DNA from: a virus
Virus record (IMG/VR): IMGVR_UViG_3300035162_001186
Coordinates: 1-26,245 of that record
Reading direction: 5' to 3' (one strand)
DNA length: 26,245 nt
Below, in pieces: positions 2,329 through 24,941 of this stretch (its first letter is position 1; every line of letters starts with the position of its first letter). Position numbers and translations under genes: made by a program. The notes beneath the pieces were generated by a model. The model searched no databases. It saw only the letters and a program-made list of their open reading frames with translations, and was not told the origin of the DNA.

Positions 2329-5300
2329 TTACAAGCCTGCTATCTCACCAGTATTTTTCAAGCGTAGCGGAATGTAAACAAACTCTACTGCTTTTACTGG
2401 TTCTATTGCTATGTCTAAGTACAGCTCGTTTCTGTCAATTCTAGCTGGTGTGTTATTACTAGTGTCACATACAACTAAGAAGTCATATAGTGCTCTAGCA
2501 CCTACTAGTTCCAAACATAAACTTTCTGCTGCTTGTTTGATTTGATCTCTTGTAATCTTATCGTTTGGCTCAAAGATATAAGGCTTAGCAAGTTTGTTAA
2601 GTTGACTACGTAAGTAGATAACCAAACGTGCTACGTTAATTCTATCTAATGAACTTGCATTTCTTGCACGAGTCTTTTGACCGTAGTTAACAAGTCCTGC
2701 ACCGTTAATAAACGTAATTGGATTAACACTTACACTATAAAGTGTATCACGCTGTCCTTCGTTTAATGCAATTGAAACAAATTCGCCGCTTCCATTAACA
2801 TAACCTGTTGCCGAAGCATTAGTTACGCCACCTCGTCTTGTGCCTGCTGGTGCAAACCAAGGATAGCTAACTTGATCACTAAGTGCAATTGTGCGTAGCA
2901 TCATATGACTTGGCGGAACAACTACATTGTTGCCTGCGTTATCACTTGTGAAGCCCCAAGGGTAAAACATACCCAAGTACTCGTCTCTTGATACAAGTCC
3001 GTCATCGTTATCTTCAACTGCAAGTTTAGTATTTTGACCCCACTCATTAAGTGATGTTGCGTCTGATGTTAATCTTGCTGGTGTATCACCTACAATAAAT
3101 GCACTTAGGCCTCTATCAAGGTTTAAACTAATCATTTCGCCAATTAGCTCTGAATAACCAGGTGTTGCCATAACGTTAAAGATTTTTGTTTCGTCATCTC
3201 TAATGTCTTGGTTACTGTTCATTTCGGATTGTAGTCCTTGCACAATAACTTTACGTTGTGCGTGGCGTCCAAATGATCCTGCACCGTCTTCTTGGTTTCC
3301 TGATTCAGTAACCCAACGATCTGGACTGTATGCTGCCATACTTACATCGCCCATTCTAATATTGTCAGCTGTAATATCAACATAGTTACGTACATATTTC
3401 TTAACGTTGAATCCGCTTCTACGTAAGTTCCATAGTAACATACCTTGTGGATATAGTGCTGGATCTGGAGCATCTGTGTCTAAAAAGCTGTTTAATAGCA
3501 TTTCAGCAATAGTTGATTCAGTAGCACTGCCGTCTGTACTGTAACGTGCATCAGCAAATAAAACACCATCTTCAGTAGTTTGGTCTGACTTGTCAATCAA
3601 TACCCATTTTGTAAGATCAGCACTGTAACGATAAATTGTTGGATAGTTTTCTAAGTCTGCTGTACTAATCCAAAGATCGTTTGCTACTAAGCTAGTAGTT
3701 GGTTCAGTTGCTGCTGTAGTAATTTTTGCATTTGGAAATGCGCCTGCAGTATTATAACCAACCCACGTTGTACCATTGTGATACATCATATCAACTTCAT
3801 CAACTACTGAACTGTACCATAATGTACCGTCTGCTGTTGTTGATGTTGGAGCATTTGCTGAAGCAGTAAATGTAGAAAGTACTTTCCAGTTACTAATTTT
3901 AGCTTCTGTAATACCAATATCTTCTAGTGCGCTAGATGTATCAGTAATGTCAACATCGCCGCCTTTAGTGTGTGAAATTATAACTTTATTATTTGCATCA
4001 ACTGAAGCAACAACATTTGTAAGTCCGGCACTATTAATTCCATCAGCAATTAATTCAGCATCGCTTGCTGCGCCAGTTGCTGTAAATGTAACAACAGCTG
4101 ATACTTTTGTTGTAGTGCCTGCAATTGTTTCTGCAAGTGTAAAGCTAGTTGAACCAGCACTAATCTGTGCTGCAACTATACTTGATGTTACTGTTGAAGC
4201 GCCTGATGCTGATCTACGGAAGATTTTAAATTCTGCTAGTTTATCAGCTGCTTCTGTCCAGTTAGACTGTACATAAAGATCGCCTAGTGCAAGATTAACA
4301 CCGCCGCCTGCTTTATCAAGTGCTACTAATGCACTTGCATTATCAGCGTGTATAGGTGCAGTTACTAAATCCCATAATTCTGTAGCAGAATTCCAAACTT
4401 TAACTCTCCAACGTGCGCCACTGTTTGCTTCTGTTGTTTTTAACCAAACACTGCTTGTTGGACGAGGTGTAGTTGCTCCTGCTTTCCATTGTGGAACTGA
4501 TGTGTGTGGATCAATTGCTAGTTCTGGTATTGCATAAGTTCCTGCTGTGATTGCTACTTGTGCTAGTAATCCAGTTCCTTCTGCAATTGTGATAGTAGTT
4601 GCATTTGCTCCAGTATTAAAAATAGCAAGTTGTCCGTTAACATTTGCAGATGTAATACCTGCGTTTGTTAAGTTTGATACATTATTAATTGCTGTAACAA
4701 CTGCGTCTAAGTCTGTTCCGCCTGTTGTAACTGTTTCGCTGTCAATTGTAAATGTAAGTCCATTAGTAATTGATGTTATTGCGCTGCCTGTTACAGTTGG
4801 TACTGTGCCAGTCCAAGCAGTTGTGCCTACTTTAACCCAGTTACCTACATAGTTTTTGTAGAACACAGTATACGTAGTATCTTGTCCTGCAACAACAGCA
4901 TAGTCGCCAATTGCGCCTACTGAACCTTTAGGTACACCAGCAGTAAGTTGTGCTGCAAGTGTAACTACTATTGGTGTTTTTACACCAAAACTTTGTCCGC
5001 CTGTTGAAGTAATTGCTTCGCCGTTCCATTCAAAAATACCAAATGCAGTTGAAGCAGTGTCTACCCAGTATGCGCCATTTGTAGGATCGCCTGCTGGTGC
5101 AGTTGCAGTAGCTTTTAATGCACCTAGGTCTACGTCTGCACGTACAACCCAAGCTCTGTTTGAAACACCAAGTAATGAGTACGCTGCTTGTAAACCATAT
5201 TCGTTTAGTTCACCGCCGTGTATTGCATTATTATTAGCATCAGTATAAAAAATTGGGTCACCAAAGGTTTCTGTTAAATCACGTTGTGATGTAAGTAAGT

Positions 5301-5472
5301 AAGGTGTACCTGCGTTAGCTTTTAACGTACCTGGAGCTATACCAGTGCCGGCGCCGTTAGTTTTATTTGTTGCGCAAGCGACGAAAATCATTGGGACCGT
5401 ACCTGGTTCAGCGGGTGTGTAAAAACTCTCGTCTACTACGCTAACCTGTACTCCGGGTGATGTTAGTGCCAT
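2329..5472 (-). CDS. 18: Contractile tail sheath protein gp18
   Basis: This is the tail sheath subunit, which contracts to drive the tube through the host envelope. The N-terminus MALTSPGVQVSVVDES and the C-terminus (NELYLDIAIEPVKAVEFVYI followed by PLRLKNTGEI) are the conserved ends of T4-family gp18. The core region around YSPDRWVTESGN and the late block with LNEGQRDTLYSVSVNPITFI fit the sheath fold. At 1047 residues it is far longer than T4 gp18 (659). The extra length lies between residues about 120 and 620 and consists of Thr/Ala-rich beta modules, including two stretches that resemble flagellin IN motifs (about 253-312 and 470-522) and short strand-turn-strand units ending in WV or W. 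These insertions probably face outward on the sheath. The start has TTAGGAGA as ribosome binding site and a CTAAATA late promoter upstream. Confidence 0.95.
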   Translation of the reverse strand: MALTSPGVQVSVVDESFYTPAEPGTVPMIFVACATNKTNGAGTGIAPGTLKANAGTPYLLTSQRDLTETFGDPIFYTDANNNAIHGGELNEYGLQAAYSLLGVSNRAWVVRADVDLGALKATATAPAGDPTNGAYWVDTASTAFGIFEWNGEAITSTGGQSFGVKTPIVVTLAAQLTAGVPKGSVGAIGDYAVVAGQDTTYTVFYKNYVGNWVKVGTTAWTGTVPTVTGSAITSITNGLTFTIDSETVTTGGTDLDAVVTAINNVSNLTNAGITSANVNGQLAIFNTGANATTITIAEGTGLLAQVAITAGTYAIPELAIDPHTSVPQWKAGATTPRPTSSVWLKTTEANSGARWRVKVWNSATELWDLVTAPIHADNASALVALDKAGGGVNLALGDLYVQSNWTEAADKLAEFKIFRRSASGASTVTSSIVAAQISAGSTSFTLAETIAGTTTKVSAVVTFTATGAASDAELIADGINSAGLTNVVASVDANNKVIISHTKGGDVDITDTSSALEDIGITEAKISNWKVLSTFTASANAPTSTTADGTLWYSSVVDEVDMMYHNGTTWVGYNTAGAFPNAKITTAATEPTTSLVANDLWISTADLENYPTIYRYSADLTKWVLIDKSDQTTEDGVLFADARYSTDGSATESTIAEMLLNSFLDTDAPDPALYPQGMLLWNLRRSGFNVKKYVRNYVDITADNIRMGDVSMAAYSPDRWVTESGNQEDGAGSFGRHAQRKVIVQGLQSEMNSNQDIRDDETKIFNVMATPGYSELIGEMISLNLDRGLSAFIVGDTPARLTSDATSLNEWGQNTKLAVEDNDDGLVSRDEYLGMFYPWGFTSDNAGNNVVVPPSHMMLRTIALSDQVSYPWFAPAGTRRGGVTNASATGYVNGSGEFVSIALNEGQRDTLYSVSVNPITFINGAGLVNYGQKTRARNASSLDRINVARLVIYLRSQLNKLAKPYIFEPNDKITRDQIKQAAESLCLELVGARALYDFLVVCDTSNNTPARIDRNELYLDIAIEPVKAVEFVYIPLRLKNTGEIAGL

Positions 5473-13379: not shown

Positions 13380-13387
13380 TATTTATG
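13380..13387 (-). promoter_or_regulatory. T4-type late promoter (CATAAATA) for the repetitive fibre gene
   Basis: The minus-strand octamer CATAAATA includes the TAA stop codon of the subtilase gene. The predicted +1 is 13374, giving an 18-base leader with AGAGGT before the ATG. Confidence 0.7.
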
Positions 13388-14954
13388 TAGTAGCTATTGA
13401 TAAATTAAAGTTACTAAGCAATAATGAACCAGTAACAGATGATGTGTTTGCAACACCGTATCTACTATATAATAATCTATTACTACTTCCCATTAGACTA
13501 GCAGTATCAGCAGTATAATCATTGTCTAATCCTGTATCAGAAATTACTGCTGACGAATCACCAATGACTTTATTAAGCAAATCATCAGGCGAAATAGTAG
13601 GCTGACTTTGTAAATAAAGAGCAAGTAGTCCTGCTACCTGTGGTGATGACATTGACGTGCCGCCAATATTCATTACACTATAGTTTGAATCTGTCGGATA
13701 TGTAAATGTAACTGAATTATAAGATGTATCGTTTAAGTTTGAAGCAGTGCTTAATATTTTATTTCCAGGAGCCCATACATTAACAGCTGGTCCTTTTTTA
13801 CTGTAGTTAGCTGGTCTATCTATTCCGCTATTAGATATGTTATCGATGCTTCCAACAAAAAATGCCCTATTACTATATGGAGAACCAGGGCGATGATATG
13901 AGTAAGTAGTTGCGTTATGCACCACTGTGTTATTATAATCATCTCCAGCAACAACGTCTGCTTTATAAAAGTCATTTCCGGCAGCTAAACATATGTGTAT
14001 TCCAGCATCGATCATATCTTCAATTTCTGCATCAACAGCAGAAACCTGTACTGGATATCTTGCACTTCCGCTATATATTGCTCCGGGAAGACCGTATAAA
14101 TCAAGAATGTTATCAGCTAGATCAAAGGTCCAAGGAGTTCCTCGATATGTTCCGCTAGCCGGGTTGCCAGCTTGTTCACCTAAATATCCCCAGCTCATAT
14201 TTACTATAGTAGGACGTCCGTTGGACTTAGCATTATGCCATAATCTTATTGAATCAAATGCATCTGCTGCCGGAATGCCTGTACCGTCGGGACCTTGTAA
14301 CGTTTCTAGCCCTGCAAGTTTTTGAGCATAAACATTTGCACCCTTTGCCCACCCGTATGTTTCACCTGCTGCAATTCCTGCACAATGTGTTCCGTGTCCG
14401 TCTCTGTCTCTATAAAAGTTTGCACTTTGTGTTCCGGATAATCCACTTTCTGTATACCAGTCAATTTGTTGTACTCGACTTACGCCGTTTGCATCTATAA
14501 ACTCTGGATGGTCTACTTGTAATCCGCTGTCTTGTATTACAATGTCAACGCCCGAGCCGTCTAGTGCATAATTATAATTTCCAGATACTGAACCAGTAAT
14601 TGAATTAAAATTATTATTGACATCTATACAGCGTCTAAGGCCCCAGTTTACAGTATTTTGTCCAACAGTTGTTCTTTCAAATGCACCTTCTTGACTTGCT
14701 CTGGTACCAATTTTAATATCGTCTCGTTGATCAGGCGGTATTTCTACTGCTAAAATACGAGCATCGTTACGGAGTTCATTAGCTTCTAGATCAGTTAACA
14801 TCCAGTGAGTCATTCGTGTTGACCCTAGTCTAGGATTAGCAATATCTACAGTTCGATTAGGTATTGGTCCAGCGCCGGTTGACGCTGTAAGTTCTGCATC
14901 AACTTCTTGTAAACTTATGCCTCTTTTAACAATTACTGCGTATTCTTTTTCCAT
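13383..14954 (-). CDS. Subtilisin-like serine protease (peptidase family S8)
   Basis: This is a complete subtilase of 523 residues. The catalytic tetrad is intact: Asp142 (VIQDSGLQVDH), His187 (DGHGTHCAGIAAG), the oxyanion Asn327 (AAGND) and Ser434 (GGTSMSSPQVAGL). The first 80 residues resemble an inhibitory propeptide (strands around YAVIVKRG and HWMLTDLEANEL, ending AVEIPPDQ), and there is no signal peptide, so it probably acts inside the infected cell or from the virion. I place the start at ATG 14954, which overlaps the previous stop as TAATG; an in-frame ATG six codons upstream (14972) is possible. Its place between virion-type genes suggests cleavage of structural proteins or of host surface proteins at adsorption; the target is unknown. 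A C-terminal tail of about 80 residues follows the catalytic serine. Confidence 0.93.
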   Translation of the reverse strand: MEKEYAVIVKRGISLQEVDAELTASTGAGPIPNRTVDIANPRLGSTRMTHWMLTDLEANELRNDARILAVEIPPDQRDDIKIGTRASQEGAFERTTVGQNTVNWGLRRCIDVNNNFNSITGSVSGNYNYALDGSGVDIVIQDSGLQVDHPEFIDANGVSRVQQIDWYTESGLSGTQSANFYRDRDGHGTHCAGIAAGETYGWAKGANVYAQKLAGLETLQGPDGTGIPAADAFDSIRLWHNAKSNGRPTIVNMSWGYLGEQAGNPASGTYRGTPWTFDLADNILDLYGLPGAIYSGSARYPVQVSAVDAEIEDMIDAGIHICLAAGNDFYKADVVAGDDYNNTVVHNATTYSYHRPGSPYSNRAFFVGSIDNISNSGIDRPANYSKKGPAVNVWAPGNKILSTASNLNDTSYNSVTFTYPTDSNYSVMNIGGTSMSSPQVAGLLALYLQSQPTISPDDLLNKVIGDSSAVISDTGLDNDYTADTASLMGSSNRLLYSRYGVANTSSVTGSLLLSNFNLSIATT

Positions 14955-15760
14955 TATACTAGACTTGCCCAAGCTCCATTTTCGTATACTTGCGCTTTGT
15001 TAAGAGTACTGTCATATATCATATCGCCGTTAACTCCTGCAAGTGCATTTTTTTGTGTTGTTGTAAAGCTAGGTAATCTAAATGGACCACCTGTGACAAT
15101 AGTTGCATCTGCTGCGGTTAATGTTATTGTACTTGCACTTGTAATAGTAGGAGTGCCTGCTCCACTAGTTTGTATATCGTTAGCAGTTAGTGTATTATTA
15201 ATTGTAATAGCATTACTAGTTGTTGAACCTCTAGTAGTCACAGATGCTAGTGTATCAGTTTCGGTAACAGCGCCGCCACTGCCTCCACTACTTGTTGTCG
15301 GCTGTATCCATTGTTGACTATCACCGTCATTAATATAAATGTAAAGTTTTCCGTTGGAAGTGTCTAACCATAAATTGCCTGATTGAGGACTTGTTGGAGC
15401 AGTTTCTGCCACATCTACACTTGCGCCACCTGATAACGAATCTTCGTTCATCCAATGGTCTGTTCTCCAAACTAGGACTTGTCCTTCATCAGGTATTGAA
15501 TTAGGCATATACATTACATCTTGAAATTCTTCAATACTAATGTTATTTAAAGATGAGGCTTGAAGAAATGCCGTAGTATCGACATTAGCTAAGTCAGCAC
15601 GGGCAATTTCAAAGCCGCCGGCAACCTTACCACTATATACTCTTAAACTATTAGTACCTTTATTAAAGAATACTTCTCCGCTAGAGCCTACATTACGATC
15701 TAAAAAATCGTCGGGTCTTGGTATAATCCTAATTCTATCTACTATGGGTGATGATGACAT
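14954..15760 (-). CDS. Putative fibre or appendage virion protein
   Basis: This 268-residue protein has features of phage fibre or appendage proteins. The N-terminal half carries two short strand-turn modules (SGEVFFNKGTNSLRVYSG and PDEGQVLVWRTDHW), then a PTSPQSGNLWLDTSNGKLYI unit of a type widespread in tail proteins, a Thr/Ser-rich repeat of ITI/ITL strands, and a C-terminal NGDMIYDSTLNKAQVYENGA unit ending in W. There is no enzymatic motif. It is the first gene of a late transcript, with an AATAGGAA ribosome binding site, and is translationally coupled to the subtilase by a one-base TAATG overlap. That coupling makes it a candidate partner, anchor or substrate of the protease; this is inference. 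Confidence 0.75.
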   Translation of the reverse strand: MSSSPIVDRIRIIPRPDDFLDRNVGSSGEVFFNKGTNSLRVYSGKVAGGFEIARADLANVDTTAFLQASSLNNISIEEFQDVMYMPNSIPDEGQVLVWRTDHWMNEDSLSGGASVDVAETAPTSPQSGNLWLDTSNGKLYIYINDGDSQQWIQPTTSSGGSGGAVTETDTLASVTTRGSTTSNAITINNTLTANDIQTSGAGTPTITSASTITLTAADATIVTGGPFRLPSFTTTQKNALAGVNGDMIYDSTLNKAQVYENGAWASLV

Positions 15761-15785: not shown

Positions 15786-15793
15786 TATTTATC
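15786..15793 (-). promoter_or_regulatory. T4-type late promoter (GATAAATA) for the fibre-subtilase pair
   Basis: The minus-strand GATAAATA lies between the end of the halogenase operon and the 268-aa gene. The predicted +1 is 15780, giving a 20-base leader with AATAGGAA. Confidence 0.75.
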
Positions 15794-15816: not shown

Positions 15817-16227
15817 TCAAAATAATTTAGTTTTCTTTGATATTTCTTGTATTTTGTCGTTTTTAAGCACAAATTTAGTTATATCGTCGCAGTGAATATA
15901 GTAAGGAGTGCTATCAGGAACACTAACAAATGGAATGTGATGATAACTATCTTCTATTTCTCCTAGCCAAGATTCTTTAATTACAGGAATTTCTATTAGA
16001 TCTTTATTAAAACCTTTTGTTGTTCCTATAACAGTTTTTTCAATTCCGTCGTCTTCGTCAATATAAAAGATTATTACATCGTGCTCTTGTAACAACGCAT
16101 TTAACCAATTTCTTAATCGTTGGCGATCTTTTTGACTTTTATATTGAGCCATATCATCACCTTCTTTCACTTCTCGCTTGTTTACTTCATAAGTAACAAG
16201 TTCAGTAGTTTGTAATTCTGAAATCAT
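15817..16227 (-). CDS. Small protein of unknown function, last gene of the halogenase operon
   Basis: I do not recognise this 136-residue protein with certainty. Residues about 30-70 (RQRLRNWLNALLQEHDVIIF, then a YIDEDDG turn and a second strand) have a helix-strand-turn-strand order that recalls the small Sm-like/SH3-like barrels of phage WYL_2-type proteins, which is only a guess. The rest is mixed alpha/beta with a Lys-rich C-terminus. The ATG overlaps the preceding stop as ATGA, and GGAGGTGA precedes it, so it is translated from the same mRNA as the five upstream genes. It has no membrane segment, signal peptide or cysteine cluster. An in-frame ATG at MAQYKSQ is a possible shorter start. 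Confidence 0.75.
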   Translation of the reverse strand: MISELQTTELVTYEVNKREVKEGDDMAQYKSQKDRQRLRNWLNALLQEHDVIIFYIDEDDGIEKTVIGTTKGFNKDLIEIPVIKESWLGEIEDSYHHIPFVSVPDSTPYYIHCDDITKFVLKNDKIQEISKKTKLF

Positions 16228-16961
16228 TTCTCACCTCCAAAGTGTTTATAGTATAGGTCTTGTATTGTATTTCTTTTTAGTGTAAACGTTGCATTGCTAA
16301 AGTACTTTCGCTTTGCTTGCCAAAACTTATCTATGGTATTCATTTCTCGACATACTAAGTCAAAGTTACTTTCGCTTAATGGAATTATGTGTGCTAACGG
16401 AGTTCCTGCTTTAATCAATACATCGCCTTTGTGAACATTATAGTATAATTGAATATTTATTTCATTGCTAATGCCTGGATTTAAAATTCCAATAGAACTT
16501 TCAAACTCGAAGCTATCCGGATATGCTATAGGAAGTACTAATAGTTTTACTCCCCTAGGAGCAACAACGTGCCACGGAGTATTAACTTTTACTAAAGTAC
16601 GTAAACTCCACGGTTTCATTGGTAATACCGAGCCTACACCATTAGATTGATTTTCTAATAAATTAGGTTCCATTGAGTCTGAAAGATCTGAAGTAGGTAC
16701 AGTCCATTCAAAACTCTCTGCATCGCCATTTGTTCGTATAATAACATCGTGCCACATAGGTACAATATACCCTTGGTTAAATAAATCAAAAATACCAGGG
16801 CACTGGTAAATATGATTCATTCTTCCCATTGATTGTTTCTTTTTCTTTACATAGGAATTTCGAGCAGCTTTAGCCCACGCAGGTATTGCTTCTTTAGCCT
16901 TCACTATTGGAAAGAAATCTGGAACTCCTGGTACTGTTGAATAAAACTCTATTTTTTTCAT
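16224..16961 (-). CDS. DUF6065-like protein of the halogenase operon
   Basis: This 245-residue protein resembles a family seen beside halogenase and oxygenase genes (DUF6065 as I recall it; this assignment needs a profile search). Shared features are an N-terminal strand, then KAKEAIPAWAKAA, CPGIFDLFNQGYIVPMWHD, and an all-beta second half with FEWTVP, GVKLLVLPIAYP and GTPLAHIIPL. The last block, a strand after a glycine turn, looks like a jelly-roll or dUTPase-like barrel edge. No catalytic residues are evident. Its function is unknown, possibly an accessory or substrate-handling protein for its neighbours. Both ends overlap the adjacent genes as ATGA, so it is tightly coupled to the oxygenase gene upstream and the small gene downstream. 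Confidence 0.7.
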   Translation of the reverse strand: MKKIEFYSTVPGVPDFFPIVKAKEAIPAWAKAARNSYVKKKKQSMGRMNHIYQCPGIFDLFNQGYIVPMWHDVIIRTNGDAESFEWTVPTSDLSDSMEPNLLENQSNGVGSVLPMKPWSLRTLVKVNTPWHVVAPRGVKLLVLPIAYPDSFEFESSIGILNPGISNEINIQLYYNVHKGDVLIKAGTPLAHIIPLSESNFDLVCREMNTIDKFWQAKRKYFSNATFTLKRNTIQDLYYKHFGGEK

Positions 16962-17530
16962 ATTATCACATCGTATGCTATATTGATTCTTTCTTTAGTA
17001 GATTCATTAGTATCTACTTCGTGCGGTAGCCAAGATGGCCATAGTATTAAATCCCTATCTTTAGGATCATAATAAAAGTCTCTAGTAAACGGAGATAAGT
17101 TATTACATTCACCTAATATATTTGCAGGATTGATTATTCTTAATGAACCAGCATTAGTACCTTGCAAGTAGTATACTCCAGAAAAAATTGCGCTCTTGTG
17201 CGAATGCATAACATTTCTTGTTCCTGGTTGATTAATATTAGTCCAATAATGTATTTTAAGAGCTTGATTGTTTATTTGCTTAAATGCGTTTGAAAAAACT
17301 TCGTCTTTTGAACTATAATAATTAATAGCACTAAACACCTTAGATGTAATTTCTTTTAATAACCAATCTATATTAGTGTATTTGTGCTTAGATCTCCAAC
17401 ATCCGTCATTGGTGTCCGATGTTGAAGGAGTATTGCGTATTTGATTTATTTGCTTATGTAACTCTTGCACTTGTTCGTCATTGCCGATGTCCGATGACGA
17501 ATCTAAAAATGCTTCATATAAAGATATCAT
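16958..17530 (-). CDS. 2-oxoglutarate/Fe(II)-dependent oxygenase (putative), second copy
   Basis: This 190-residue protein has the double-stranded beta-helix motifs of small 2OG-Fe(II) oxygenases of the 2OG-FeII_Oxy_5 type: MHSHKSAIFSGVYYLQG (H109 and H111, iron ligand region), LILWPSWLPHEV (distal His170) and ERINIAYDV (Arg181, expected to bind the 2-oxoglutarate carboxylate). Such enzymes couple decarboxylation of 2-oxoglutarate to hydroxylation or another oxidation of a substrate. It differs strongly in sequence from the oxygenase at 19041-19640 but has the same His spacing (109/111). The N-terminal 50 residues are acidic and variable. It follows the halogenase with an ATGA overlap and is overlapped in turn by the DUF6065-like gene. 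The substrate is unknown. Confidence 0.8.
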   Translation of the reverse strand: MISLYEAFLDSSSDIGNDEQVQELHKQINQIRNTPSTSDTNDGCWRSKHKYTNIDWLLKEITSKVFSAINYYSSKDEVFSNAFKQINNQALKIHYWTNINQPGTRNVMHSHKSAIFSGVYYLQGTNAGSLRIINPANILGECNNLSPFTRDFYYDPKDRDLILWPSWLPHEVDTNESTKERINIAYDVII

Positions 17531-19038
17531 TCACTATACCAATCTGTTAGATAATCGTAGTGATTGTCAAACATATCTTCTACTAAATCAAGTCTTTTAT
17601 TATGACACTCTAAAAAGAATTCAGCATATTGTTTTTGTTTATCAGTTAGATGAGACTGTACATCCTTATATGCTCCGCCAGAGTGGAGTACTGTAAACCA
17701 CTGTACAATATTGAACATAGAATTTGGTGCAATATTTATGAATCGTTGAGGAATAGGCAAAAATAAAGATATAATTTCTTTTGCTAATGGCGGCAAGTCA
17801 TCCATACGTTTTGCTTTTGCTTCTTTCCAATAGTCTGTATCATCTTTTGTTGCATAATAATAATGTATCCAAATAAACGCAAGAATTTCATTACACATAA
17901 AATCAAAGTTTTTATTAATTATACTTTTCTGTTTCTCACCCCAGATATTGCCGCTGTTGTTTAATGATCCAGCAATATCAGAAACAACAGCAGTAGTAAA
18001 TGTAATACCTGTTGCTTCTAATGGTTCAATAAATCCAGCACTTAATCCAACTGCGCACACATTTTTTAATGCAATCTCTTTATGGTATCCGCACTTCATT
18101 TTTAGATGTCTTGCAGGAGCCACGTGTTCACCAATCTTATTTCTTAGTTCTTGCTCTGCATCTTCTGGTGTAATATGCTTACTAGAATGTACATAACCGT
18201 TTCCTACACTCTTAAAGGTAGGAATAGTAAACATCCATCCACTATCCATTGCAGTAGCTTTAGTGTAAGGATGACATTGTTCTTGCGGATTAATATATTG
18301 AGTTCTAATTACTACAGCACTATCATTTAGTAACCAACGACTATAATCATTAAATTTTACATTTAATTTTTTCTCTAATAGTATACTTGCAAATCCTGTA
18401 CAATCTATAAATAAATCCGAAGTATACTTACTGCCGTCTTCTGATATTAAAGATTCAATACCGTCATCAGAAACTGATACATCGCTAATTCTAGTATCTA
18501 CATATGTAATCTTATCTAGTATTAATCCTTTTATAGTCTTAATTATATCATATGCGCTAAAATGCACGGCTCCAAAGTCTACAGGACCCATTCTGTGATT
18601 AACATCTAAGTAATCATCAAATTTTTGACAAACATTTTTTTTAGCTAATCTGTATGCAGGATGCCAGTTAGCAAATTCTGAGTACGGTTTGTCTATAAAA
18701 TAGTCACTAGTATAAAGGTCGTGCGCAATTACTACATTGTCGGGATTATCATTGTCTACAAAATAAGGTTCGTCGTTCCATCCTATTAATTCCACACCAT
18801 ACTTAAAGCTGGCATTACTATCTTTCATCCACATATGAGGAGTGATACCGCATTGACTTAAAAACTTTGCAGTAAACGGTTGTGTGCCTTCGCCAACTCC
18901 AATTGGTCCTTGTTCTGAATCTTCTATTAAAACAATTTCTGTTGGTATTTTTAAATTATTTGCTAGATATGCTGCTGTTAACCAGCCGCTTGTGCCGCCA
19001 CCAAAGATTGTAATTTTTTTAACTTTTTGTAAGTACAT
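17527..19038 (-). CDS. Flavin-dependent tryptophan-halogenase homologue
   Basis: This 503-residue protein belongs to the flavin-dependent halogenases, which use FADH2, O2 and halide to make a hypohalous species that travels to a lysine and halogenates an aromatic ring. It has the FAD-binding GGGTSG (residues 13-18), GVGEG (47-51), the catalytic lysine at position 79 (SFKYGVEL), the same number as in PrnA and RebH, and LEATG (Glu341, Thr343, Gly344) matching the LESTG halide site. The diagnostic WxWxIP motif is present as GWMFTIP, with Phe270 for the second Trp. No flavin reductase is encoded nearby, so reduced flavin would come from the host. A cyanophage relative, VirX1 of phage Syn10, has been reported to iodinate varied substrates. 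The start is two bases after the preceding stop. Confidence 0.9.
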   Translation of the reverse strand: MYLQKVKKITIFGGGTSGWLTAAYLANNLKIPTEIVLIEDSEQGPIGVGEGTQPFTAKFLSQCGITPHMWMKDSNASFKYGVELIGWNDEPYFVDNDNPDNVVIAHDLYTSDYFIDKPYSEFANWHPAYRLAKKNVCQKFDDYLDVNHRMGPVDFGAVHFSAYDIIKTIKGLILDKITYVDTRISDVSVSDDGIESLISEDGSKYTSDLFIDCTGFASILLEKKLNVKFNDYSRWLLNDSAVVIRTQYINPQEQCHPYTKATAMDSGWMFTIPTFKSVGNGYVHSSKHITPEDAEQELRNKIGEHVAPARHLKMKCGYHKEIALKNVCAVGLSAGFIEPLEATGITFTTAVVSDIAGSLNNSGNIWGEKQKSIINKNFDFMCNEILAFIWIHYYYATKDDTDYWKEAKAKRMDDLPPLAKEIISLFLPIPQRFINIAPNSMFNIVQWFTVLHSGGAYKDVQSHLTDKQKQYAEFFLECHNKRLDLVEDMFDNHYDYLTDWYSE

Positions 19039-19040
19039 TT

Positions 19041-19640
19041 TTAATATTCCTCATAATCAAATTGTATGTTAAAGGCCAGTGATACACGTATTTCGTTAGA
19101 CCTATTAGGTAACACCTTATGTAACAACCAACTTGGAAATAATAGTATCATACCGTCTTTTGGTTCAACAGTAACTAAGTTATGATATTTTTCTGCCTTA
19201 TGAGGGAAGCTAATCACAAAAGGATTTGTACTTTTAAATTGTATGTCGCCGCTATTTTTTGGCACATTGTGATAATAGCATCCACTAAATATGTTTGGTT
19301 GATACCCGTGTTCGTGTAATCCAATAACTTGATCTTTTTCAAATGTATTTGCCCAAGATCCAATAGTCATTAAACTTCCTTCTTTATACGGGTGTCCGAT
19401 TTCTTTTAGGTAGATAGCTGCGTGATTTATGATATTAGAATTTATTTCTTTCATATTAAAATCACTAATTATATCTGTAGAACTACTAGGATTAAAAGTA
19501 GTGTTTGCAGTATCGTTATCTGGTTGCCATTCATTTGCAAATTTAGCCTTAGGCATAATAGAATTTATTTCGTTATTGACTACAGTTCGATCTGCTATCT
19601 CTCCCATATATATTGGTGTACTAAAAAAGTCTCCTATCAT
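19041..19640 (-). CDS. 2-oxoglutarate/Fe(II)-dependent oxygenase (putative), first copy
   Basis: This 199-residue protein matches the 2OG-FeII_Oxy_5 pattern well: GLHEHGYQPNIFSGCYYH (His109, His111), GMILLFPSWLLHKV (distal His174) and EIRVSLAFNI (Arg185 for 2-oxoglutarate). The N-terminal segment FFSTPIYMGEI is typical of the family, in which a short strand precedes the oxygenase core. It should be a cytoplasmic Fe(II) dioxygenase acting on an unknown substrate, perhaps a protein side chain or a small molecule. Its ATG overlaps the stop of the U32/methyltransferase gene as ATGA, and its stop lies two bases before the halogenase ATG. The equal positions of the HxH pair in both oxygenases suggest an old duplication, although overall similarity is low. 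Confidence 0.85.
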   Translation of the reverse strand: MIGDFFSTPIYMGEIADRTVVNNEINSIMPKAKFANEWQPDNDTANTTFNPSSSTDIISDFNMKEINSNIINHAAIYLKEIGHPYKEGSLMTIGSWANTFEKDQVIGLHEHGYQPNIFSGCYYHNVPKNSGDIQFKSTNPFVISFPHKAEKYHNLVTVEPKDGMILLFPSWLLHKVLPNRSNEIRVSLAFNIQFDYEEY

Positions 19641-21304
19641 TTTCTAATTACCACTATGTATAACCCGTTCCACCATTCGTTTTTATTTTCTATAGAATTT
19701 AAAATTAATTTTTCATAAGTAGCAAGTCCTCGACAGTTATTAATACCTGTTCGGGCACCGTCTACGACTCCGTCCCAATTTGCATCGTCAAAAACTAGTA
19801 TCGCTTCTTCTGCTAATGCAGGCCAGTAATGCTCAACAGCTTTTGCTACGCTGCTTTCGTCGTGAGGGCCATCATAGAAAAACATTTTCATACTATTCAA
19901 CATTGGAGTTACATCTACTTCAAATAGATCTTTATTTAAAACCGTAACAGTTGAATCGCCTCGGTGTTCTTCGATATTTTTAAAGAATACGTTAATGTCG
20001 TTAGCTTCAGTTATTTCACCATTTGCAGACTGTATTCCTTCGCTCCAGTGATCGATAGCAACAGCATTAATAGGATTATCTTTTAATACAGCGCATAGTG
20101 TTGCGCCTAAGTACGAACCTACTTCTAGATACGTGTCTACACCTTGTGCTAAAGAATTTAATAATGTTTGTACTCTTGACGAAGTTAGTCCCGGAATATC
20201 TAAGTTTATTGTCGGAACTCCTGATCTAGCTATAGCTTCAGAAGTATGTTTGATTAATTCACTATGGTCGATATCAGACTTTACTTTATAAATTTTATCA
20301 CAGTACTGACATTCCCAACAGTCAAATTTACAATTTTTAATTTTGTCACGCCAAACATTAATAGGCTTTTCTATAAGGTTAGTTTCATTTAAGTATGTTT
20401 CAAATCCTTCTACAATAATTTCTTCATTTCTATCCCACTTACGAATAGTTTCCATTGTTTCATACAAACGACTTACTGCTTCTCGACCGTGCATTTTAAA
20501 TGTATCAATACCTAAGTCATTAATAAATTCTTCCCAGTCTTCCTTCCAAGGAGGAAGATCAGCAGTTTTTAAATGAACAGCGGGATCTTGTACGTCCCAT
20601 TTAGGACAACTTACGCGACTAATAGGATCATTAAAATATTGCGGTGCATTACCTTCTCTAGTATTATTATATTCAAAATGCTCAACCATCATTGGGCAAC
20701 TGCCAAGACAGCCTTCATTACCTAGTAAGCTATATTTTATATCTTTGCCAAAGTTTTCTTTTATCCACTCTTTTGCTTGTTTTAATCTTAGTAAAGTATC
20801 ACGATCTCTCATCAAGTCTCTATCAATATTAATATAGTCAAATCCGTATTTTGCAAGATTAACAATTTCAGTAGCAGAGCTCACATCACGAAGAATAGTG
20901 TTCTTTACCATTAGTTCAGGAAATGCACGTTTTATTTGACCAGTTGCCATCCAGTGTGTATGAGGAATAGTAGCAATACGCACACCTGCATCATACATTG
21001 GTTTAAAGTTGTAGATAAATGTATCTAAATTTTGTTGAGTAGGAGCAACTTGAATATTATTAAATGTTGCACTAACCGGTACTCCAGTGTAACTTTGAAT
21101 CTGAAGTGCTACGTCAATTGCATACTTGTAATCATCTTGTGCAACAAACACATCGCCCATAGCATCTTGTGCAAACGGAGCGATACGACTTGTAAAATAA
21201 ATGTCGTAGATAAGATGTTTGTATTCTACTACAAACTCTACAAACTCTTGATATTGTTCAGGAGTAAGTTTTGGATTTAGTGGAATGCTAAATATTTTTT
21301 CCAT
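19637..21304 (-). CDS. U32-like TIM-barrel protein fused to a class I methyltransferase
   Basis: This 555-residue protein has two parts. Residues 1-300 look like the U32 (collagenase-like/UbiU-TrhP-RlhA) family: repeated strand-helix units, an IDTFKMHGREA block like the family's KIxGR, and Cys199 and Cys203 in NEGCLGSCP plus Cys233. U32 members of known function hold Fe-S clusters and take part in oxygen-independent hydroxylation of RNA or quinone precursors. A linker carries CKFDCWECQYC (Cys325, 329, 332, 335), a probable metal or Fe-S knuckle. Residues 385-555 form a Rossmann methyltransferase of the Methyltransf_24 type: LEVGSYLGA (393-401), AVAIDHW, FFYDGPHD and ILVFDDANW. The ribosome binding site is weak (AGGTAACG). 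It is the first gene of the operon, so its product may set or prepare the substrate for the enzymes downstream. Confidence 0.75.
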   Translation of the reverse strand: MEKIFSIPLNPKLTPEQYQEFVEFVVEYKHLIYDIYFTSRIAPFAQDAMGDVFVAQDDYKYAIDVALQIQSYTGVPVSATFNNIQVAPTQQNLDTFIYNFKPMYDAGVRIATIPHTHWMATGQIKRAFPELMVKNTILRDVSSATEIVNLAKYGFDYINIDRDLMRDRDTLLRLKQAKEWIKENFGKDIKYSLLGNEGCLGSCPMMVEHFEYNNTREGNAPQYFNDPISRVSCPKWDVQDPAVHLKTADLPPWKEDWEEFINDLGIDTFKMHGREAVSRLYETMETIRKWDRNEEIIVEGFETYLNETNLIEKPINVWRDKIKNCKFDCWECQYCDKIYKVKSDIDHSELIKHTSEAIARSGVPTINLDIPGLTSSRVQTLLNSLAQGVDTYLEVGSYLGATLCAVLKDNPINAVAIDHWSEGIQSANGEITEANDINVFFKNIEEHRGDSTVTVLNKDLFEVDVTPMLNSMKMFFYDGPHDESSVAKAVEHYWPALAEEAILVFDDANWDGVVDGARTGINNCRGLATYEKLILNSIENKNEWWNGLYIVVIRK

Positions 21305-21383: not shown

Positions 21384-21908
21384 CTACTCTTTGTCCCAGG
21401 GCCACTTAACTTCAAAATCTGGTTGTTTTTCAAGGCCGTGGGTGGTTGCATTACTCATATTGTAATAGTTATACAATACTAAGTCGCATTTTTCCATAGT
21501 GGTAGCATTATTAATTTCTTTAATTAACTTCTTTAAAGTTTTTTGGCTGCTAATATGTGCTTTAGCATAAAGTCTCATTGCTGATTTTATCAAAGCTACT
21601 ACGTCTTCGTTATCTTTTGCATTTAATTTATAGATGTGTTTCTTCCACTCTACATCACCAGAAGCAGTTACTATATCTTTTTTTGTTGTATACGGCTTAG
21701 TTAAACTAACTACGCCCTTATATGCATTTGTTAAAGGATACGAATATGCTACGTCTTCTGATAGTTTTTCGTGGGGCAACCAGTCTATAAATATTCCTTT
21801 ATTAGGAGGAATATAGCTTATAGTAAAATGCCAGTAGTCACCAATTTTAACAATTTCAGGGTGTACTCTTGGATCGTCACTGGCTAATGTTTCATTTATT
21901 ATATACAT
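21384..21908 (-). CDS. Protein of unknown function (174 aa)
   Basis: I do not recognise this 174-residue protein. The first half is strand-rich with many aromatics (IGDYWHFTISYIPPNKGIFI, then DWLPHEKL), and the second half is helical and basic (ALIKSAMRLYAKAHISSQKT then LKKLIKEINNA), ending with a Trp/Asp/Glu tail (KWPWDKE). There is no signal peptide, membrane segment or metal motif. Its ATG lies inside the end of the preceding gene (17-base overlap), with GGAG about 12 bases upstream, so it is translated from the same mRNA as the 288-aa protein. The next operon's -35 box touches its stop. Position between fibre genes and the halogenase operon suggests a late virion or assembly role, which is inference. 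Confidence 0.8.
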   Translation of the reverse strand: MYIINETLASDDPRVHPEIVKIGDYWHFTISYIPPNKGIFIDWLPHEKLSEDVAYSYPLTNAYKGVVSLTKPYTTKKDIVTASGDVEWKKHIYKLNAKDNEDVVALIKSAMRLYAKAHISSQKTLKKLIKEINNATTMEKCDLVLYNYYNMSNATTHGLEKQPDFEVKWPWDKE

Positions 21909-22758
21909 TTAGAATATCATCTCCGACAGGACCGGCTGTTGCACTTTTTGTATCCATTGTTAGTTTTTGAGTAGCTTCTTGGAGACTTAATGGCGTAGTT
22001 AAAAATGCATTATCAGATTTATCTCCAAGCGACAATGTTTCATCTACTTGAAGTTGAATATTTTCATTTATCTTTTGTAGTTGTGTTCCGTAACTCATAG
22101 CTAACGTTAACGTTTGTGTTTGGTGTTCAGGAGCCATACTTAAAATAGCATCCATATTTCCTGTGCCGACTCTTCCGTAGAACAAAAGATCAGTTGCTGC
22201 TTGTTTAGCTAGTCTATTAGTCCAAAATTCTGCTTCATATATATCTTCTTCGTCGGTGTCCATTATATCCATATATGTTCTGCCACTGCCGTCTGGAAGT
22301 AATGCTTCAGGAGACTCATTGAATTCGTTTACTAGATCTATAATTTGTTGCCTTTCGAGATACCAATTAACTAGTCTCCGTTTGGTCATAATTTGAGTAC
22401 GAGTAAGTTCGTCTGCTTCTATTTGACTTTCTCTACGATCAAACTCATTGTCAGAGTGTTCTGCTATGTGAAGATGTCTATCTACTTGAACTTGATATTT
22501 TTTAATCTCGTATTCCAAGTTTTCGATTGCTTCTTCTCTTGATTTTATTTCTAAAATCCACTGGCGTACTTTACTAAATGGTGTAATTTGTGTTTCTCCC
22601 ACAAACCAACGCATTTTAAATTTAGGATTGCTCCATTCTTTGTTTAACGAATATTCTAGAAGTTTATAGTCTTCTTCGGACATCATTGATGTATCAGACA
22701 ACACTCGGCTGCTGTAGTCAGATGCTTCTTGTTTAAATTGTGCTATTCTGTCAGACAT
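21892..22758 (-). CDS. Coiled-coil protein of unknown function (288 aa)
   Basis: This 288-residue protein is charged and mostly helical. Residues about 70-110 (SREEAIENLEYEIKKYQVQV onward, through DRHLHIAEH) and 115-140 (RESQIEADELTRTQIMTKRR) have heptad character and should form coiled coils. A later block EAEFWTNRLAKQAATDLLFY, followed by GRVGTGNMDAIL, looks conserved-type but I cannot name its family. The C-terminal part is helical with polar spacers. The product is likely a late structural or assembly protein, since it lies next to the fibre operon behind a late promoter. Translation starts at an ATG with AAGGAGAC eight bases upstream. That ribosome binding site is one arm of an 8-bp hairpin described separately. 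Confidence 0.8.
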   Translation of the reverse strand: MSDRIAQFKQEASDYSSRVLSDTSMMSEEDYKLLEYSLNKEWSNPKFKMRWFVGETQITPFSKVRQWILEIKSREEAIENLEYEIKKYQVQVDRHLHIAEHSDNEFDRRESQIEADELTRTQIMTKRRLVNWYLERQQIIDLVNEFNESPEALLPDGSGRTYMDIMDTDEEDIYEAEFWTNRLAKQAATDLLFYGRVGTGNMDAILSMAPEHQTQTLTLAMSYGTQLQKINENIQLQVDETLSLGDKSDNAFLTTPLSLQEATQKLTMDTKSATAGPVGDDILNVYNK

Positions 22759-22761
22759 ATT

Positions 22762-22798
22762 GTCTCCTTTATATGTTGTTAATATTTATTAAGGAGAC
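22762..22798 (-). promoter_or_regulatory. Hairpin that hides the ribosome binding site of the 288-aa gene
   Basis: On the minus strand GTCTCCTT (22798-22791) can pair with AAGGAGAC (22769-22762), a perfect 8-bp stem around a 21-base loop. The 3' arm is the ribosome binding site. The loop contains the late promoter octamer at 22790-22783. RNA that starts there lacks the 5' arm, so its ribosome binding site is free, while longer transcripts would have it closed. T4 uses this logic at gene e. Confidence 0.7.
22783..22790 (-). promoter_or_regulatory. T4-type late promoter (AATAAATA), proximal, for the 288-aa gene
   Basis: The minus-strand octamer AATAAATA gives a predicted +1 at 22777, leaving a 19-base leader that starts downstream of the hairpin's 5' arm and contains AAGGAGAC. 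Confidence 0.65.
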
Positions 22799-22807
22799 GT
22801 TTACAAA

Positions 22808-22815
22808 TATTTATT
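22808..22815 (-). promoter_or_regulatory. Second late-promoter-like octamer (AATAAATA), distal
   Basis: An identical minus-strand AATAAATA lies 25 bases upstream of the proximal one. It is embedded in a 16-base inverted repeat, ACAAATA-AA-TATTTGT (22803-22818). Transcripts from it (+1 near 22802) would contain the whole RBS hairpin. It could be a weaker promoter or the remains of a duplication. Confidence 0.45.
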
Positions 22816-22832: not shown

Positions 22833-23882
22833 TTAGGATCTCCAAGCACACGTGCCTGAGCTTGCTCCTGCTTTGCCTTTTGGTTCCATACTTGTTCCGC
22901 CTTGGAAACCTTGTTCAGAGGCATAATTAAATCTCCAACTAAGATTATTTTGTAGTCCGTTGTACATACCTATCATATATTGATGATCTTGGCCCATTGT
23001 CATATTTTCTTCACCTGAGTTTCCTACAGGTTTATTATAGCCAGATGAGGTATTATTTGTAGTAAAGTTAGTTTTACGGAAGGTATACCCGGCGTTATAA
23101 CCACCTTGTGCGCCTGCCCAAGCAAACCCGCCTTTGGATTGAACTGATTTTTGTTGGTGACTATTTCCAGGTTGAGTTCCGCCTCTACTAGCTATTGTTC
23201 TGGTTGCAAATGTAAATGTATTAGAACTACCCCCATTATAGTGTATTCCTATATTCTCGCCACTCATTCCCCAAGATGATCCGCTCAATGAATTTTGACC
23301 AGTTTGTCCAATGTATGTTTTAGTGGACAAATTATATTCTTCAAACAGAGTAGAACTTCCGCCGCCACACCAAGCAAGGTAATGTTCTTGGAATACTGCT
23401 CCAAAGTTATGTCTATTAATTGCTAAACTTCTATCAATATCTGTAGTTTGTTGTTCAGTTCTCATATTAAATGCAGTAACGTAATTTGAACTAACTGCGT
23501 GTCCGCCGCCTGCTCCAAAAATGTAAGCATCGTCTAATGAACAAGCGCCTGGTTGATAGTTGAATGACCGTTCAATTGCGCCATCACCTAGATTGTATGT
23601 TGTGTCTGTAGCAGTTAGTGTTCTGTTTATATTATTCCAGGCAGCTGCACTTTTATAACCACCTTGCATATAAGCATTAGTGATAATTGTTCTATTCTGA
23701 AAAGGGATGGTCATTTGTGTCCATCCGCCTGCTAATGCATTTTCAGAATAATATTCTACTGTGCCGGTTTCTGTATTATGACGTATTCTTCCTGCGGCAT
23801 TAGCTGGGCGCTGTGCTGTTGTTCCTTTTGGTAATCTAAGGAATCCGGTATCGTTAATTGTGGTATTTTTTAATGTTGCCAT
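22833..23882 (-). CDS. Tail fibre paralogue A, kelch-like
   Basis: This 349-residue protein is one of a tandem pair. Residues 1-50 form the shared anchor module (MATLKNTTINDTGFLRLPKG, then TTAQRPANAAGRIRHNTETG and VEYYSE), also present in the next two genes upstream, which probably docks the fibre to the particle. Residues 70-349 are rich in Gly, Asn, Ser and aromatics, with repeats such as YIFGAGGGHAVSSNY and FNMRTEQQTTDIDRSL that resemble kelch/beta-propeller blades, and a conserved end SMEPKGKAG...CAWRS. It is likely a receptor-binding fibre or tip. The ribosome binding site is TTAAGGAA with the ATG 12 bases after the preceding stop. The conserved end blocks are shared with paralogue B at the DNA level, including a 38-base identical run. 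Confidence 0.82.
   Translation of the reverse strand: MATLKNTTINDTGFLRLPKGTTAQRPANAAGRIRHNTETGTVEYYSENALAGGWTQMTIPFQNRTIITNAYMQGGYKSAAAWNNINRTLTATDTTYNLGDGAIERSFNYQPGACSLDDAYIFGAGGGHAVSSNYVTAFNMRTEQQTTDIDRSLAINRHNFGAVFQEHYLAWCGGGSSTLFEEYNLSTKTYIGQTGQNSLSGSSWGMSGENIGIHYNGGSSNTFTFATRTIASRGGTQPGNSHQQKSVQSKGGFAWAGAQGGYNAGYTFRKTNFTTNNTSSGYNKPVGNSGEENMTMGQDHQYMIGMYNGLQNNLSWRFNYASEQGFQGGTSMEPKGKAGASSGTCAWRS
22924..22961. repeat. 38-bp exact direct repeat, copy 1
   Basis: This run is identical to 23986-24023. It encodes the NGLQNNLSWRFNYA part of both fibre paralogues. A second shared run of about 25 bases lies near each 3' end. Confidence 0.9.
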
Positions 23883-23894
23883 TGCATATATTCC

Positions 23895-24941
23895 TTAATC
23901 TCTCCAAGCACAAACAGCAGAACTTGATCCTGCTTTGCCTTTTGGTTCCATAGATGATCCACCTTGGAAGCCTGATTCTGTAGCGTAATTAAATCTCCAA
24001 CTAAGATTATTTTGTAGTCCGTTATATTGTCCTAGCATATACTGGTGATCATTTCCCATAGTGTAATTTTCTTCACCACAGCTCCCAACCGGTTTAGATA
24101 CTGTACCAGAAGTAGAATTTGTAGTCCAGTTAGTTTTACGTAAGTTATTACCGCCACTATACGACCCTTCGTTGCCTGCCCAAGCAAATCCATATTTTGA
24201 ATTAACTGCTTTTTGCTGATGGTGATTAGACACGCCAGTTCCGCCTCTAGTTGATATTGTTTTAGTTGCAAATGTCAGTGCGTTTCCGTTGTTTCCAGTA
24301 TAAAATATTCCGTAGTTTTCAGTACTCATACCCCACTGACTTCCGCTATAAGTAGTAGCGCCAATGGTGCCTTGTAACTGTTTGGTAGTCATATTATATT
24401 CCTCAATACGACCATCTGCACCACCTGCCATAAAGGTTCTATAATGTTCTTGAAATACTCCGCCAAAGTTATGACGACTTAATGCTAGACTTCTACTAAT
24501 ATCAGTTGCTTGAGTTTCTGTTCTCATATTATACGCAATAGTGTAATTTGAACTAACTGCGTGTCCACCACCTGCACCAAATACATAAGCATAATCCTTA
24601 GAACAAGCACCCCATTGATAATTAAATGCAGCCTCAATTGAGCCGTCACCTAGGTTAACAGTAGTATCAGTTGCTGCGTTAGTTTTATTAATATTATTCC
24701 AAGCAGCACTACTTTTATAACCACCTTGGATATATGCGTTTGTAATAATAGACCTAAAAGGAAATAACAAAGAGCTTAATTCCCAAGCTACTCCATTCCA
24801 AGATTCTAATTTACCACTATCGCTATTTACTCGCATACTAGCAATATTACCAGATGTTTCAGCTGGTCGTGTTGCGCTTGTGCCGACTGGTAATCTTAAA
24901 AATCCTGTATCGTCAATAGTAACATTTTTGAGTGTTGCCAT
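23895..24941 (-). CDS. Tail fibre paralogue B, kelch-like
   Basis: This 348-residue protein is the tandem partner of paralogue A. The N-terminal module (MATLKNVTIDDTGFLRLPVG, then TSATRPAE) matches, followed by a slightly different linker (SGKLESWNGVAWELS) and the same Gly/Asn/aromatic repeat body (YVFGAGGGHAVSSNYTIAYN, NMRTETQATDISRSLALSRH) and end (SMEPKGKAG...CAWRD). Most differences lie in blade edges, for example LRKTNWTTNSTSGTVSK against FRKTNFTTNNTSSGYNK, as expected for surface-exposed receptor-binding residues. It starts with an AGGAGG ribosome binding site; the ATG is one base after the upstream gene's stop, and 12 bases separate its stop from paralogue A. The two can recombine through the repeats. 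Confidence 0.82.
   Translation of the reverse strand: MATLKNVTIDDTGFLRLPVGTSATRPAETSGNIASMRVNSDSGKLESWNGVAWELSSLLFPFRSIITNAYIQGGYKSSAAWNNINKTNAATDTTVNLGDGSIEAAFNYQWGACSKDYAYVFGAGGGHAVSSNYTIAYNMRTETQATDISRSLALSRHNFGGVFQEHYRTFMAGGADGRIEEYNMTTKQLQGTIGATTYSGSQWGMSTENYGIFYTGNNGNALTFATKTISTRGGTGVSNHHQQKAVNSKYGFAWAGNEGSYSGGNNLRKTNWTTNSTSGTVSKPVGSCGEENYTMGNDHQYMLGQYNGLQNNLSWRFNYATESGFQGGSSMEPKGKAGSSSAVCAWRD
23986..24023. repeat. 38-bp exact direct repeat, copy 2
   Basis: This run is identical to 22924-22961, in the corresponding place of the second fibre gene. Recombination between the copies would delete about 1.06 kb and fuse the two genes in frame. Confidence 0.9.

Follow-up and report, generated by a model that had tools for sequence, protein, structure and literature searches.

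A halogenase, oxygenase and methyltransferase gene cluster in the fibre region of a T4-like virus, with a possible role in late tailoring of aromatic groups

Introduction

Among the viral flavin-dependent halogenases, VirX1 of phage Syn10 is a broad halogenase in vitro that accepts many small aromatic compounds (PMC8407142), and the halogenases of cyanophages have been described as auxiliary metabolic genes or as possible protection against antibiotics (PMC10452541, PMC2984593). What viral halogenases act on in nature has been an open question ever since one was first characterised. A second group of relevant enzymes acts on RNA: the U32 proteins TrhP and RlhA hydroxylate pyrimidines, TrmR methylates ho5U, residues E162, C170 and C177 are essential in TrhP, and TrhO-TrmR gene fusions are found in some eukaryotes (PMC6599085).

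The stretch of DNA analysed in this work (the window) is the complete 26,245-base record IMGVR_UViG_3300035162_001186 of a marine, bacteria-infecting virus, which contains T4-like tail tube, sheath and connector genes together with fibre genes. Six of its genes, A to F (Table 1), are predicted to encode a methyltransferase with an additional barrel domain (A), two 2-oxoglutarate-Fe(II) (2OG-Fe(II)) oxygenases (B and D), a flavin-dependent halogenase (C), a remote DUF6065 relative (E) and a small protein (F). A full-text literature search (halogenase with phage tail fibres or virions, and DUF6065), with most subscription journals outside its reach, found no description of this joint system. Gene A is linked to an upstream gene, Q, and the halogenase to E and to tail-fibre genes. 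We tentatively propose, with confidence a little short of evenly balanced, that the cluster encodes a pathway that tailors aromatic groups late in infection, its probable substrate being a protein of the tail or the fibres.

Gene set and proposed late transcription unit

The six genes were found with the strand, order and junctions reported in an earlier sequence-only reading: A/B, C/D, D/E and E/F are 4-nt ATGA overlaps and B/C is a 2-nt gap. The fibre-region location given there was also borne out, tail-fibre-like gene G lying directly downstream. In Pfam, PHROGs and NCBIfam, C comes out as a halogenase, both B and D fall with oxygenases of the PF13759/TIGR02466 type, and A has a methyltransferase domain in its C-terminal half, in agreement with the suggested halogenation, oxidation and methylation. 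A, C and E match phrog_1458, phrog_2928 and phrog_7084, respectively, and F matches no PHROG; the Pfam search gave no match for E or F, and megablast of the region against phage records gave none.

The six genes are coupled as that reading had stated, but its boundary did not hold, since the late-promoter boxes indicate a unit of eight genes starting at Q (22758). In the window, no late-promoter box precedes any gene between Q and fibre gene G. Over the whole window, the motif ATAAATA shows no enrichment (13 versus 15.3 expected); within 60 nt upstream of genes, however, it occurs at 6 of 21 minus-strand genes versus 1.1 expected, and only 3 of 5000 shuffles reached as high a count. In relatives, where a box was scored as NTAAATA within 100 nt upstream (distances depend on the called starts), boxes precede Q (25/26), G (24/24) and fibre gene I (21/25), and hardly ever A (0/27), B (0/14), D (1/24), E (4/28) or F (0/28). 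X is boxed in 9 of 24 relatives, all from one clade, and the halogenase in 10 of 35 (5.3 expected), mostly at a distance of 69-81 nt. Because boxes precede Q and G and so rarely the genes between them, the simplest reading of this pattern is a single late transcription unit, Q-X-A-B-C-D-E-F, and the assignment of the operon to the late (virion) programme is thereby strengthened.

Table 1. Positions of the genes and late-promoter boxes of the proposed transcription unit and its downstream neighbour in the window
Feature	Position	Strand	Product or match	Remark
Late-promoter boxes, T4-type, ATAAATA (two)	22783-22789, 22808-22814	-		before Q
Q	21892..22758	-	288 aa, phrog_1409 match 1e-38	first gene of proposed transcription unit
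X	21384..21908	-	174 aa, function unassigned	between Q and A in most relatives
A	19637..21304	-	555 aa	putative U32-like TIM barrel 1-345 and predicted catechol O-methyltransferase (COMT)-like domain about 362-555
B	19041..19640	-	199 aa	2OG-FeII_Oxy_5 oxygenase 1, PF13759 2.7e-21
C	17527..19038	-	503 aa	flavin-dependent halogenase (activity predicted), PF04820 4.6e-86
D	16958..17530	-	190 aa	2OG-FeII_Oxy_5 oxygenase 2, PF13759 2.3e-18
E	16224..16961	-	245 aa	DUF6065-superfamily protein, predicted dUTPase-like fold, phrog_7084 6e-40
F	15817..16227	-	136 aa	small protein, no Pfam/PHROG family
Late-promoter box, ATAAATA	15786-15792	-		starts next unit (G)
G	14954..15760	-	tail-fibre-like, phrog_9729 tail fiber 5e-16	downstream neighbour, separate unit

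Conservation of the cluster in relatives

We collected 35 IMG/VR loci carrying a close halogenase, most of which have the same neighbours; searches that took A, E, Q or the Syn9 counterpart of VirX1 as query added further loci. The order A-(oxygenase)-halogenase-oxygenase-E-F recurs in dozens of distinct viral contigs, and this recurrence makes the arrangement more than chance. When the contexts of A were reduced to 87 distinct A sequences with sufficient flank, in 54 the halogenase came immediately behind A or was separated from it by a single oxygenase; the remaining 33 include the arrangements Q-A, Q-X-A, A-E and Q-X-A-oxygenase-E, from which the gene set seems to have accreted around a core of Q and A. 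All 80 Q loci that extend 1.8 kb or more downstream contain A, two of them with rearranged order (these loci are the best-scoring matches and partly overlap the other searches, and thus do not represent 80 independent events). The Q and A proteins of Syn19 each have relatives in 123 phage records with the same breakdown by organism, a comparison of the breakdowns rather than of the lists record by record. The distance matrices of A, the halogenase, E and Q correlate with r of 0.76-0.91.

The six genes do not behave as an all-or-nothing set: for each of B, D, E, F and the halogenase there are relatives that lack it (many in the case of B), and Q and A were never separated within the loci read. 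The scattering by independent gain and loss that the sequence-only reading had set against itself is partly seen, in the losses, while the order is largely kept.

The VirX1-type lineage and linkage to fibre genes

Two lineages, with only 27-28% identity between their halogenases, have E after the halogenase. In the second lineage, 44 VirX1-like loci reach 3 kb or more downstream; E is present in 34 of these and an oxygenase in 37. A tail-fibre-family gene (phrog_863, phrog_529 or phrog_9851 type) lies within 4 kb upstream in 62 of the 66 VirX1-like loci that reach 2.5 kb or more in that direction, and in all 53 of those that carry E. Cyanophages P-RSM6 and P-TIM40 agree with this fibre linkage, S-RIM44 and P-SSM2 less directly. 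Late boxes precede the first halogenase in 26 of 54 VirX1-like loci (6.8 expected), E in 4 of 43 and oxygenases in 2 of 107, which we read as a transcription unit starting at the halogenase. In a phage-like contig binned with Maricaulis (L044), the order oxygenase-E-x-oxygenase-halogenase-oxygenase stands behind fibre-like genes; both this contig and another from a metagenome-assembled genome bin (L041, Porticoccaceae) are phage-like DNA by gene content. Neighbours of protein-hydroxylase type were also found, namely JmjC_2 in Syn9 and a "leprecan" gene in S-SM1. The latter is part of a run of oxygenase genes downstream of fibre genes (S-SM1 33496-39749, L319), one of them annotated "leprecan protein"; T4-GC 353/354 is absent from the S-SM1 stretch read.

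Halogenase C and oxygenases B and D

C is a flavin-dependent halogenase by sequence with its catalytic residues kept and its activity predicted: GGGxxG (G13-G15, G18), K79 and PLE341 (E341) are invariant in 20 sequences. The window protein departs from the WxWxIP motif, having GWMFTIP with F as the second aromatic residue; halogenases of the operon clade have GWxFTIP or GWxWTIP, with W268 and P273 invariant in the 20 sequences, and variants or absence of WxWxIP have been reported in some active halogenases (PMC8407142). In a single-sequence PDB search with C, tryptophan 5-halogenases were nearest and VirX1 was thirteenth. VirX1 as the top PDB match was discarded as biased, the query alignment having included the Syn9 counterpart of VirX1. 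Ten carrier records, including three complete cyanophage genomes, yielded no phage flavin reductase (PF01613), so reduced flavin would come from the host or from another enzyme.

B and D score 76 and 67 bits against 2OG-FeII_Oxy_5 (cut-off 27), and the HxH and distal His are conserved wherever the pattern search located the motif. They are solidly assigned as PF13759 oxygenases of predicted activity, and the two oxygenases and the tryptophan-halogenase homologue of the sequence-only reading are thus upheld by PF13759 and PF04820. B also matches phrog_274, and two of three cyanophage genes annotated "DNA endonuclease V" under that family (L038:7692-8189, L281:3331-3930 and L280:12985-13593) match 2OG-Fe(II) oxygenase Pfam models; on these grounds the phrog_274 annotation is probably wrong.

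Protein A

In the structure model of A (17-row alignment, mean pLDDT, the predicted local distance difference test score, 73.5; pTM, the predicted template modelling score, 0.53), the N-terminal half forms a barrel-like fold of eight strands and the C-terminal half a methyltransferase fold. The latter matches Methyltransf_24 (PF13578, 6e-11), shows E394/G396/G400 and DDAN as invariant, and gives fold matches of Z about 16-17 (maximum 16.9) over about 170 residues, the best of which include SafC, catechol O-methyltransferase and related O-methyltransferases; TrmR is also among the fold matches of A. By sequence and model, this half is a predicted S-adenosylmethionine (SAM)-dependent, COMT-like O-methyltransferase domain.

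The earlier description of A as a U32-like/methyltransferase fusion stands for the methyltransferase half and weakly for the TIM-barrel half. In profile comparison with 30 U32 sequences of one bacterial phylum, the barrel gave P 0.0019, co-linear over 212 columns, versus 0.43-0.64 for unrelated-family controls, and the alignment ends with GIDVFKMHGRE against GVxSLKIEGR. Seven cysteines are invariant in A, C199, C203 and C233 among them, as is E197, with E197/C199/C203 being a possible counterpart of TrhP E162/C170/C177 but with different spacing. None of 17 A members matched Pfam Peptidase_U32 at E<=1. With no Pfam match, a weak profile P and another Glu/Cys spacing, we call this half U32-like, a weakly supported assignment, and not a U32 member. 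PDB sequence searches with the N-terminal half gave no match, and the fold matches listed for A are methyltransferases and other barrels (pyruvate kinase, MTHFR) with no U32 protein among them, which is not taken as exclusion. The barrel had no match in 230 alphaproteobacterial genomes, a search uninformative on absence. A radical-SAM reading of the CxxxCxxC at 325-332 was rejected, the motif lying after the barrel and not at its start.

Proteins E and F

None of 20 E members reaches the DUF6065 gathering score, and bacterial relatives of E match DUF6065 at up to 18.4 bits, below the cut-off of 26.6. Profile comparison with 29 DUF6065 sequences gave P 2.2e-14 (probability 98%, 194 columns), by which E is a remote member of the DUF6065 superfamily; the DUF6065-like label given to it earlier was right but distant. 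For the structure model of E (pLDDT 82.7), the top fifty Foldseek rows are all dUTPases except one dCTP deaminase of the same fold group, and fifty VIA-align rows are all dUTPases, with best Z 9.8 over 130 residues. A dUTPase profile matched E at P 0.001 with alignment at dUTPase motif 3, and the PDB sequence search gave weak dUTPase matches only. The catalytic Asp position is Asn in E of the window (Asp in most E proteins and in dUTPases) and the Gly-rich fifth motif of the dUTPase tail is absent from E, which makes a dUTPase activity unlikely; a binding role may be envisaged. In many relatives (L011, L014, L019, L020 and others) a second, diverged copy of E, about 30% identical, is present near F. 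F itself, aligned in 16 rows, occurs only with the halogenase among the contigs surveyed. A WYL_2/SH3 assignment of F was rejected: a single member matched, at E 0.09, and carrier contigs gave no WYL_2 match.

Neighbouring genes

A subtilase gene at 13383-14972 (minus strand; Peptidase_S8, 2.5e-27) is situated between two tail-fibre genes, is kept in most close relatives and possibly encodes a virion-borne protease. Upstream of Q there are tandem phrog_1417 paralogues (22833-23882 and 23895-24941, minus strand); a phrog_1417 gene also shortly precedes Q in Syn19, so the block preceding Q-A is conserved in cyanophages. The best-covered matches of the tail sheath (2329-5472, minus strand, 1047 aa) are sheaths of PA5oct-like Pseudomonas jumbo phages (44-47% identity), and two tail-tube-like genes (161-1567 and 1658-2290) come after the sheath gene.

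Proposed function and alternatives

From the observed gene content, gene order, late-box pattern and linkages we infer the activities of the single enzymes, their joint pathway, an aromatic target and a virion substrate. An aromatic group is taken as the target since it is the common denominator of the family chemistries of A, B, C and D. In the proposed pathway, the U32-like half of A would hydroxylate a ring and the COMT-like half would O-methylate it; C would halogenate an indole or phenol ring using FADH2 supplied by a host reductase; B and D would carry out additional O2-dependent oxidations; E, with its dUTPase-like fold, could be a non-catalytic binding or handling protein, and F an accessory protein. 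Late timing together with the linkage to Q and to fibres makes a virion protein the leading candidate: the substrate would be a co-expressed protein of the tail or fibre region, with Q or a neighbouring fibre as the foremost candidates, and in finished virions the host-binding end or its vicinity would bear residues with halogen, hydroxyl or methoxy groups. The wider proposal, that T4-like marine phages including the VirX1 carriers dedicate such systems to the late halogenation, hydroxylation and O-methylation of aromatic residues in their own tail-fibre or tail proteins, we consider possible but doubtful.

Several observations weigh against this proposal. The U32 assignment of A is weak, and to our knowledge the hydroxylases described to date in the U32 family have RNA or quinone substrates rather than protein ones. 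Halogenases are found away from fibres in S-B64 (replication genes), CP21 (ligase/tail sheath gene) and HTVC008M (near terminase), and four VirX1-like loci (L382-L384, L386) are also not beside fibres. Q and A are about 6 kb apart in S-RIM14. Fibre regions are plastic and adjacency may be hitch-hiking, and the correlation of distance matrices is also expected from shared phylogeny.

The alternative that survives best, although we regard it as unlikely, is that the operon makes or alters a small molecule (a host metabolite, signal or antimicrobial) and that the fibre region is a mere address. Free tryptophan or small aromatics are the substrates of characterised relatives of C, VirX1 accepts many small aromatics in vitro (PMC8407142), protection of the host or alteration of metabolites has been suggested for cyanophage halogenases (PMC10452541, PMC2984593), and the methyltransferase half of A resembles small-molecule O-methyltransferases; but the operon has no scaffold-building gene, and the late-promoter pattern and the strict link to Q and, in the second lineage, to tail-fibre genes count against it. 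Rather improbable is the absence of any joint pathway, in which a plastic fibre region has gathered separate accessory genes with different targets into one late transcript. The absence of B, D, E, F or the halogenase from some relatives and the many other oxygenases in cyanophage fibre regions fit such a collection, whereas the persistence of gene order and translational coupling over dozens of contigs, the recurrence of E after two so divergent halogenases and the restriction of F to halogenase loci do not. A nucleic-acid target, with A as a TrhP/TrmR-like tRNA/rRNA hydroxylase-methyltransferase and a pyrimidine held in the dUTPase-like fold of E, is quite improbable: the RNA chemistry and gene fusion cited above (PMC6599085), the TrmR match of A and the nearly uniform dUTPase matches of E favour it, but E of the window has Asn at the catalytic Asp position and the Gly-rich fifth motif is absent, the Q-A and halogenase linkages are to tail genes, and no tRNA was found in the window.

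For the tailoring of a tail or fibre protein, the strict links (Q with A; halogenase with E and tail-fibre genes) provide a short list of testable proteins in cultured phages. If the proposal is true, chemistry would join sequence as a means by which phages tune host recognition, and virions would be a source of protein-acting halogenases. E also points to a likely fold for DUF6065.

Comparison with known systems

A resembles the U32 hydroxylases TrhP, RlhA and UbiU/UbiV, with their partners TrmR or UbiG, in its predicted TIM-barrel-like half, invariant Glu and Cys residues, O-methyltransferase partner and a KMHGRE motif aligned with KIEGR; it differs in failing the Pfam U32 model, in Cys spacing and in carrying both predicted activities in one protein. 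The DUF6065 (PF19541) proteins of Alphaproteobacteria share remote homology with E over about 195 columns, although E stays below the Pfam cut-off, and no halogenase or oxygenase of this kind was seen within 1.5 kb in the sampled bacterial loci. VirX1 of Syn10 and its Syn9 counterpart are alike in having a PF04820 viral halogenase directly before an E homologue and a PF13759 oxygenase, with fibre genes upstream in VirX1-like loci. Unlike these, the window halogenase, which shares 28% identity with the Syn9 protein, has bacterial tryptophan 5-halogenases as its closer relatives in a single-sequence search, and Q and A are absent beside the halogenase in nearly all VirX1-like loci. The cyanophage Q-A block (T4-GC 353/354, phrog_1409/phrog_1458) of Syn19, P-SSM4, P-HM2 and S-RIM2 stands without a halogenase or E alongside, and in several cases a short phrog_274 gene follows A; it shares with the window the order Q then A, ends a run of tail/structural-like genes, and encodes an A protein 44-45% identical to A of the window.

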